NCBI GenBank assembly: GCA_003141855.1
Contig: PLNS01000009.1
Coordinates: forward strand, 14,591-65,781
Reading direction: 5' to 3'
DNA: 51,191 bases
From: Candidatus Bathyarchaeota archaeon
Lineage (GTDB): Archaea > Thermoproteota > Bathyarchaeia > Bathyarchaeales > Bathycorpusculaceae
Shown: in pieces, positions 33,737-39,569 of the stretch
How the letters are laid out: every line of letters starts with the position of its first letter
Numbering within the stretch: position 1 is the first letter of the stretch
Program-made: the position numbers and the translations under genes
The notes under the pieces: generated by a model
The model's input: only the letters and a program-made list of their open reading frames with translations
The model's database searches: none
What the model was told of the DNA's origin: nothing

Positions 33737-34671
33737 CTAGGCAGCGCCTTTTCTAACGTACCCTGAAGCCTTCATCGCCGCCATCGCGCCTTCTCCAGCC
33801 GCCGTAACCACCTGCATCCCGCCGCAGGTGCAATCTCCCGCTGCAAAAACGCCTTCAACGTTTGTCTTCTGCTGCCGATCAACCGTTAAGCAGCCATTAC
33901 GATCCGTATCTATTCCAGCATTCTTTACTATTGCCGTCATGGGCACACCGCCTAAAGAAACAAACACGCCCTTCACCTCTCGTTCCACCTCCCTTTGCGT
34001 TTTGTATTCGAGGATTTTTATGGCTTTGACCACTTGTTCACCTATGATTTTGGTAACTTGATCCTTGATGATTTCCACGTTAGGTCTACTTTGAAGCCTA
34101 ATAAGTAAGGTGCCTTCGATGTCTAACTCCTTTTCATGAGTAACTATCGTAATCTTGCTTGCAACATCAGCTAGAGATAAAGCTTCAATCGCAGCCGCCT
34201 CCCCATTACCAACATAGCTACTGCCTTATTTCGAAAGAAGGTGCCATCACAAACAGCACAATAACTAACGCCTCGACCCAAAAAATCTGTTTCACCGGGA
34301 ACACGAAGTTTGCGTCTTTGCGTTCCAGTGGCAATAATCAAAGTTGACGCTTCATAGTTCTGCTTTCTCGATACTACTTTTTTTATTTCACCCTTCAAGT
34401 CTAAACCGACCACTTCCTCAGAGCTCTTAAACTCTGCATTGAAGCGTGCAGCTTGCTGGATCATCCTGTCAACCAACTCGCTCCCTTTGATGCCTTCTGG
34501 GAAACCGGGGAAATTCTCTATTTTAGGCGCCAACCCTGCTCTGCCGCCGGCAATGCCTGTTTCCAAAACAACGGTTTTTAGTCCAAGCCACGCGGAATAT
34601 ATGGCTGCGGTTAAGCCTGCTGGTCCAGCCCCGATTATTAGAATGTCGCATTTTCGATTTTTCTCACTCAT
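33737..34671 (-). pseudogene. trxB: thioredoxin reductase, interrupted by one frameshift
   Basis: The N-terminal part (34171-34671) has the FAD motif GAGPAGLTAAIYSAWLG, IENFPGFPEGI, IIATGTQRRKLRVPGE and the redox pair CAVCD. After KAVAM the frame is lost at about 34213. Reading on with one extra base gives VGNGEAAAIEALSLADVASK, the NADPH-binding region. The C-terminal part (33737-34078) then ends with VEGVFAAGDCTCGGMQVVTAAGEG. Restored, the protein would be about 311 aa, the family length. A single missing base could be a true mutation or an assembly error; every motif is otherwise intact. Confidence 0.85.
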
Positions 34672-38349: not shown

Positions 38350-38892
38350 TTATAGTTCTGTGAAGCGTTTTAGGATTTCTTGGTTCCGCGCTTCAGGATG
38401 AAACAGTACCCCGTAGATGTCTTTCTGCTTGTGTTTTATTGCTTGGATACATTTTGAGGATTTGGCAATTGCTTCAAAGTTTTGGCAAGGTCCGACTGAG
38501 TAATTGTGGAGCGCGTAAGCTTCAAAGTCGCCTTGGAACAATGGGTTGTCTTTTAGGGTTGTGATTTCGGTCATTCCGATTTGCAGGCAATTCATCAAGG
38601 GTTCATCGAAGACTAGGCTGATTGTTTGCATGCCTGCGCAAATACCCAGAATATGCTTGTCGCACATTTTAACCCAGTTGAACTTGTCAACCTGCTTTAG
38701 CGTCGCATGGTCTTTTAGCGCTGTTCCTGAGAGCACAATCTTACTGTAACCGTTTAGTCCTGCTGGGTCGAGGTCCAAAAAATGCTTTACCTTGCATTCT
38801 TCAAGCGGTTGGACAACGGAAACGATGGGCAAAACAAACTCGTTAAACGCCAAAGAATCCCGCTTCCAGTTCATGTCCACAACCAGAATCAT
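38350..38892 (-). CDS. class I glutamine amidotransferase
   Basis: A 180-aa GATase1 domain with a complete triad: the nucleophile in LGICAGMQTI and His-Glu in LFHPEARN. It releases ammonia from glutamine for a partner enzyme. The start overlaps the stop of the diphthine-ammonia-ligase-like gene as ATGA, so both are made together. No other synthetase is adjacent, which makes that ATP-pyrophosphatase the natural ammonia acceptor. It is a stand-alone domain, shorter than GuaA or CarA. Its coupling to diphthamide synthesis is inference. Confidence 0.85.
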   Translation of the reverse strand: MILVVDMNWKRDSLAFNEFVLPIVSVVQPLEECKVKHFLDLDPAGLNGYSKIVLSGTALKDHATLKQVDKFNWVKMCDKHILGICAGMQTISLVFDEPLMNCLQIGMTEITTLKDNPLFQGDFEAYALHNYSVGPCQNFEAIAKSSKCIQAIKHKQKDIYGVLFHPEARNQEILKRFTEL

Positions 38893-39569
38893 TTCGTAAC
38901 CAACCGAGCCTGCTTAATTATGAAAACTCCACAGTTCCCTTTCGCCTCAACCGCGTAATCGAGGATTTCAATTTTCTGCTTAAACATGGGGGCATCCAAA
39001 ACTGTCGTCTCAATCTCTCCCCCCTCCCCTGATGGACTTATGCCAAACTTGCTTTGAAGCTCCACCAATCGGGCTATCACCTGTGGGCCTATTTGTTTTC
39101 CAAGCCACTTCTCGTCAAGCGGGTAAGCAAAAACGCCTGAAATTATTACTTTGAACTGTCTGTCAACAAGCGTTTCTAACAGCGCTTTTTGGTCATGCTT
39201 CCACAAGGGGTTAAAGCACCAGACATCAAGGCGGTTGCAGATGCGCTGAACCCGCGACGCTTGATAAACCGACTCCACCGCACCCGTAACTATGCCGTCG
39301 ATTTGGAATTTGCTTTTTGCCTCCGCGATTGCCCTCTCCAAATCGGCAAGCTCCTCTTCCTTTCGCCCCTCCGTAACCACCGAAACCAGCGGCAACCCCA
39401 AAGCTTCCGCCTGAAGCGCCGTCACGTCGATGTTTGGGGTGTGAAACATGTAGCTTTCCTTGTTCTTAGAAACCACAGTGATTAGGCAGGCTACTCCTTC
39501 TTTCTCTTTAGCCAAGTGTAGGGCAAGGGTTGAGTCTTTGCCTCCTGAGAATAAAACTCCCAATCGCAT
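38889..39569 (-). CDS. diphthine-ammonia ligase-like protein (Dph6 family)
   Basis: A 226-aa adenine-nucleotide alpha-hydrolase superfamily enzyme with the PP-loop FSGGKDSTLALHLAKE at the N-terminus and the Dph6 signatures GIVTGAVESVYQASRVQRIC, FNPLWKHDQKALLETL and SGEGGEIETTVLDAPMF. Dph6 amidates diphthine on aEF2 with ATP and ammonia, completing diphthamide. The length is normal for the single-domain archaeal form. It overlaps a glutamine amidotransferase gene by 4 bp. Related paralogues of unknown substrate exist, so the exact reaction is not certain. Confidence 0.85.
   Translation of the reverse strand: MRLGVLFSGGKDSTLALHLAKEKEGVACLITVVSKNKESYMFHTPNIDVTALQAEALGLPLVSVVTEGRKEEELADLERAIAEAKSKFQIDGIVTGAVESVYQASRVQRICNRLDVWCFNPLWKHDQKALLETLVDRQFKVIISGVFAYPLDEKWLGKQIGPQVIARLVELQSKFGISPSGEGGEIETTVLDAPMFKQKIEILDYAVEAKGNCGVFIIKQARLVTK

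Follow-up and report, generated by a model that had tools for sequence, protein, structure and literature searches.

Where does the amide nitrogen of diphthamide come from in an archaeon that carries a glutamine amidotransferase gene directly behind dph6? The source of this nitrogen has been left open so far: RidA domains and a class II glutaminase have been proposed as donors, and ammonium serves as the nitrogen source of the yeast enzyme. A preliminary description of the present locus suggested that the two gene products form a two-subunit, glutamine-dependent diphthamide synthetase, or else a pair for a related amidation of another substrate. Its premise that Dph6 uses ammonia agrees with the published dependence on ATP and ammonium (PMC5354562), and Dph6 is described as an ATP- and ammonium-dependent synthetase (PMC5354562; PMC3585130). 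Here, we analyzed the gene pair in a stretch of 51,191 nucleotides (the window) from a Candidatus Bathyarchaeota archaeon and compared it with its counterparts in other archaeal genomes.

Results

dph6 and a glutamine amidotransferase gene overlap in the window

Both genes lie on the minus strand and overlap by 4 bp, as had been noted before. The upstream gene (38889..39569, minus strand, ATG start) encodes a 226-aa Dph6, a predicted diphthine--ammonia ligase of the N-type ATP pyrophosphatases (TIGR03679, PF01902). Its translation, aligned to PF0828, contains the PP-loop SGGKDS (residues 8-13; 39531..39548, minus strand). Furthermore, it has an EGGEIE motif (residues 182-187; 39009..39026, minus strand), the equivalent of E183, E186 and E188 of PF0828. 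The downstream gene (38350..38892, minus strand, ATG start) encodes a class I glutamine amidotransferase-like partner of 180 aa, here called GAT (PF00117, AlphaFold2 model). The sequence ATGA at 38889..38892 (minus strand) provides the start codon of GAT and the TGA stop codon of dph6. The nucleophile Cys85 of GAT is part of a GICAGMQ motif (Cys codon at 38638..38640, minus strand), and His165-Pro166-Glu167 belong to an FHPE motif (codons at 38392..38400, minus strand). In an alignment with GuaA subunit A, Cys85, His165 and Glu167 matched the catalytic residues, in line with the intact Cys-His-Glu triad of the preliminary description. No RNA element was found near the pair. At another site in the window (33737-34671, minus strand), a thioredoxin reductase-like gene is apparently split into two ORFs (33737-34078 and 34171-34671), which a frameshift or an assembly error could explain.

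The window protein is an orthodox Dph6

Against the TIGR03679 diphthine--ammonia ligase equivalog (NCBIfam), the window Dph6 scored 279.6 bits and thus passed the cut-off of 197.3. It also matched PF01902 (Pfam; 4.4e-68) and the PH1257/PF0828 structures (180 bits). Nine PF0828 residues (S44, Y45, E78, Y103, Q104, A149, E183, E186 and E188) have been proposed to contact EF-2/diphthine (PMC3541065), and all nine are present in the window protein. The genome encodes four PF01902 proteins, only one of which, the window protein, is over the Dph6 cut-off. The three paralogues below it (L002, L003 and L004) share one contig (G000:C13), two of them approximately 3.5 kb apart.

Dph2 and Dph5 are both encoded in the same genome, and its main EF-2 contains the diphthamide loop LHEDPVHRGPAQ with the diphthamide histidine. 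The predicted role of the window Dph6 is the amidation of diphthine on EF-2. Diphthamide is favored over another substrate because the protein is an orthodox Dph6 and the sole one in a genome that has the rest of the pathway. The genome also encodes a second EF-2-like protein of 726 aa (L196/L197; G000:C24:25845-27932), which has GEDEVGGSEVMHGV instead of LHEDPVHRGPAQ and is without the diphthamide loop. EF-2 paralogues without diphthamide have been described in archaea.

GAT fills none of five known class I roles

GAT matched PF00117 (Pfam; 7.5e-14), which identifies the generic family only. It reached no NCBIfam equivalog cut-off; the best score was that for GMP synthase subunit A (60.4 versus 198). 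The AlphaFold2 model of GAT had a pLDDT of 96 and a pTM of 0.92, and its closest fold was GMP synthase subunit A of Thermoplasma (2a9v; TM 0.85). An assignment as GMP synthase subunit A (GuaAa) was rejected given the low score and the complete GuaA encoded elsewhere (G000:C1). CTP synthase, CarA, HisH and TrpG were rejected too, all being encoded elsewhere in the genome or scoring too low. Since GMP synthase, CTP synthase, CarA, HisH and the anthranilate synthase glutaminase were all found elsewhere, GAT fills none of these known roles. By its PF00117 fold and its triad, it is predicted to be a class I (triad) glutamine amidotransferase that hydrolyzes glutamine.

The pairing is conserved across archaea

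In a survey of the class, 257 genomes were searched and 32 of them contained a full-length GAT orthologue, corresponding to 33 genes (one genome has two). dph6 was located directly upstream of every one of the 33, with an overlap or abutment, usually the same 4-bp overlap, and no full-length GAT apart from dph6 was found among the 257 genomes. A scan of named genomes revealed 80 GAT loci across several archaeal phyla, in Bathyarchaeota, Woesearchaeota, Pacearchaeota, Nanoarchaeota, Aenigmatarchaeota, Altiarchaeales, Undinarchaeales, Thermoplasmata, Methanomicrobiales, Methanothrix, Nitrososphaeria and others. In 79 of these loci dph6 was present on the same strand at a distance of ≤4 kb, and the two genes abutted or overlapped in about 67. 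Because the scan searched for G[VC]LFHPEV, FHPE is invariant among the 80 loci by construction; only the class search and a methanogen-family search were independent of the FHPE pattern. The latter covered the family to which the Methanomicrobiaceae genome G264 belongs; here, 24 of 28 genomes have GAT, and dph6 is beside GAT in 20 of the 20 loci examined. The genomes behind this evidence are mostly metagenome assemblies.

Furthermore, we detected natural Dph6-GAT fusions: one 437-aa protein in a Methanothrix genome (L156) and open frames of 465-499 aa in three genomes of the Methanomicrobiales lineage (G264 family). In the model of a natural fusion, the Dph6 half and the GATase half were each confident, the linker (residues 229-252) was disordered and the overall arrangement was not fixed (pTM 0.58). 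The N-terminal Dph6 half resembled 3rk1 (TM 0.94-0.95). In a fold search with the fusion, the matches listed covered one half or the other, never both.

The preliminary description had named unconserved adjacency as an outcome that would refute its reading. Instead, the two genes stay adjacent in several archaeal phyla and are fused in two lineages of methanogens. We conclude that the pairing is far beyond chance (33/33 in the class and 79/80 loci elsewhere, plus the fusions). serA, glyA and a Lon-like gene are conserved neighbors at Bathyarchaeia loci only and were therefore rejected as parts of the system. Neither Dph2 nor Dph5 nor EF-2 was found in the flanks of the pair in other genomes. 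In three DPANN genomes, dph6 and GAT are separated by the gene for a conserved, small protein (KKIYAEAGFGN..., about 85 aa; L154:3760-4014, L169:3709-3966 and L191:3732-4001), possibly a further partner. In genome G096, a second Dph6 fragment follows shortly after GAT (L009:2865-3119; 44 aligned residues, 68% identical).

GAT-linked Dph6 proteins form a subfamily

In all 71 pair-bearing genomes, the protein that exceeded the Dph6 cut-off was linked to GAT. Two such proteins occur only in G086 and G258, where both copies are GAT linked. Dph2 was present in 67 of the 71. In several pair-bearing genomes, mostly DPANN, Dph2 appears as two pieces, a short N-terminal one of ~60 positions and a C-terminal one (G260, G261, G262, G265, G266, G272, G278, G282, G291, G293 and G295).

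In the Dph6 tree, the linked sequences fall on one side, and PF0828, PH1257 and most GAT-less Bathyarchaeia Dph6s are located elsewhere (support 92/96, with the bootstrap not settled). Of the nine EF-2-contact residues, seven show no or almost no variation among 91 linked Dph6s, and positions 45 and 149 vary. Three residues are group specific: N120 (90/91 linked Dph6s; mostly T, A or S in others), Q108 (89/91; mostly E or D in others) and P150 (84/91; G in 15/15 others). By sequence, the linked Dph6s are thus a separate subfamily. The pairwise distances of Dph6 and GAT agree (Mantel r 0.76; none of 1,000 permutations as high), as expected of joint inheritance. W117, E24, A104, V101 and F119 of Dph6 are conserved in the presence of GAT and variable in its absence, in a comparison uncorrected for relatedness, and this is suggestive of a candidate contact surface for GAT. 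In GAT-less relatives (L104, L105, L108 and L109), dph6 is followed by an apparent ribosomal protein L15e gene, a neighborhood unlike that of GAT-linked dph6.

GAT was lost or decayed in several lineages

Within the family to which the window belongs, GAT is missing downstream of dph6 for 24 of 47 same-clade Dph6 sequences. In about ten GAT-less members, the Lon-like gene comes directly after dph6, which argues that GAT was lost (or gained) cleanly. Eleven changes of GAT presence were needed on the tree among 70 rows.

Most GATs have an intact Cys, His and Glu, and the nucleophile Cys is retained in 97 of 110 aligned GAT sequences, spread over the whole range. In the related family f5, all seven GATs examined have Gly for the nucleophile and Thr for His129 and keep FHPE. 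The nucleophile is Asp in one Bathycorpusculum GAT and Ser or Gly in some Methanomicrobiales, and one Dph6-GAT fusion (L205) is without it. The Cys-less f5 genes are under purifying selection, with a dN/dS of about 0.07-0.16, a rough estimate since dS is high and near saturation.

Because several lineages keep a partner without the catalytic Cys, GAT cannot act as a glutaminase everywhere. The loss of GAT with dph6 kept and the nucleophile-less GATs suggest that ammonia from GAT is dispensable or that its use has been reverted. Likewise, the same-clade Dph6s without GAT argue that GAT is inessential for Dph6, and the low dN/dS of Cys-less genes implies another, noncatalytic role in those lineages. 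The simplest reading of lineages with lost or dead GAT would be that they went back to free ammonia and, where GAT is dead, retained the subunit. Such secondary loss has a precedent in the ammonia-dependent carbamoyl phosphate synthetase, whose GATase domain is dead.

Discussion

The best explanation for these data is that Dph6 and GAT together probably constitute a two-subunit, glutamine-dependent diphthamide synthetase. Glutaminase partners are common among PP-loop ligases, GMP synthase being one example. In the proposed mechanism, GAT would hydrolyze glutamine at Cys85-His165-Glu167 and the resulting ammonia would be passed to Dph6, which would activate the EF-2 diphthine carboxylate with ATP and then amidate it. 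Lineages that lost GAT or its nucleophile would use free ammonia again, and a pseudo-GAT could remain part of the enzyme in a structural or regulatory capacity. Both domains, their catalytic residues, the conserved pairing, natural fusions and the remaining diphthamide pathway in the genome were observed here, and we infer a physical complex, glutaminase activity, ammonia transfer and diphthine as the substrate. The glutamine-dependent pair of the preliminary description gains support from conserved adjacency, from the fusions and from the orthodox, sole Dph6, but does not extend to the several lineages whose partner is without the catalytic Cys. As far as genomes can tell, that reading appears to be right.

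Could the two genes be neighbors for the sake of transcription only? GAT can vanish while dph6 stays beside the Lon-like gene, as such an arrangement would allow. However, the pairing spans phyla while serA, glyA and the Lon-like gene accompany it only at Bathyarchaeia loci, the two proteins are fused in two lineages, and 257 genomes of the class held no full-length GAT away from dph6, making mere cotranscription very improbable. A change of substrate, by which the linked Dph6-like protein and GAT would amidate something besides diphthine, has more in its favor, since the linked proteins form a separate subfamily in which Q108, N120 and P150 replace E/D, T/A and G near the EF-2-contact region. 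Yet the linked protein is the sole kind over the Dph6 cut-off in all 71 pair-bearing genomes, nearly all of them with Dph2, the window protein keeps every EF-2-contact residue, and canonical and linked Dph6 substitute for one another across the class. We therefore consider a changed substrate unlikely.

Somewhat less unlikely, although still doubtful, is a GAT subunit with a mainly structural, allosteric or licensing function toward Dph6, for instance in EF-2 binding or glutamine sensing, with hydrolysis secondary or absent. The replacement of the nucleophile by Gly (f5), Asp (Bathycorpusculum) or Ser/Gly (some Methanomicrobiales) while FHPE and the pairing persist, together with the low dN/dS of Cys-less genes (dS near saturation), speaks for this. 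On the other hand, the Cys in 97 of 110 sequences is hard to explain without catalysis, and the carbamoyl phosphate synthetase precedent accounts for dead domains by secondary loss. A broader scheme, which we offer as a tentative possibility, combines both roles: archaea would have two diphthamide synthetases, one using ammonia and the other, widespread one using glutamine through a dedicated class I glutaminase subunit; the latter would have reverted to ammonia several times, and dead GAT would serve as a noncatalytic regulator or EF-2-licensing factor, comparable to eukaryotic Dph7.

Among known systems, PF0828 and PH1257 (DUF71, TIGR03679) share the fold, PP-loop, EGGE motif and EF-2-contact residues with the window Dph6. 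They differ from it in grouping by tree position with GAT-less Dph6s, whereas the window protein belongs to the separate, GAT-partnered subfamily. The archaeal two-subunit GMP synthetase (GuaAa and GuaAb) likewise combines a class I GATase with an N-type ATP pyrophosphatase; GuaAa (2a9v, TM 0.85) is the closest solved fold to GAT, yet GAT stays far below the subunit A cut-off and its partner is Dph6. AsnB, a class II GATase with an asparagine synthetase PP-loop domain, is fused to DUF71 in Methanohalophilus mahii, Methanosalsum zhilinae and Candidatus Nanosalinarum (PMC3541065, 2012), and there too the glutaminase domain was proposed as the ammonia source of Dph6 (PMC3541065). In that fusion the GATase is of class II, N-terminal, accompanied by an extra PP-loop domain and restricted to few species, whereas the GATase of Dph6-GAT is of class I with a triad, encoded by a separate downstream gene or fused C-terminally, and widespread. 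Being class I and a separate gene, the window pair was rejected as an instance of the AsnB-DUF71 type. In eukaryotic Dph6, C-terminal RidA/YjgF domains were suggested to provide ammonia (PMC3541065, PMC3585130); this parallels the pair in adding a candidate ammonia-supplying domain to Dph6, but the domain and its chemistry are unrelated. In the literature searched, with subscription journals mostly outside it and an earlier description thus possible, we found no account of a class I GATase partner of Dph6 or diphthamide. Apparently new here is the class I, widespread variant of a predicted glutamine-dependent Dph6; the class II GATase fusion has been known since 2012.

Taken together, the genomes strongly predict that many archaea feed diphthamide amidation with glutamine nitrogen rather than with free ammonia. 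If this is true, a conserved glutaminase subunit would directly answer the question of the nitrogen source for a large part of the archaea, and the modification of EF-2 would be linked to glutamine supply. The intact, dead, fused and lost forms of GAT would then be natural experiments on how enzymes gain and lose a glutaminase.
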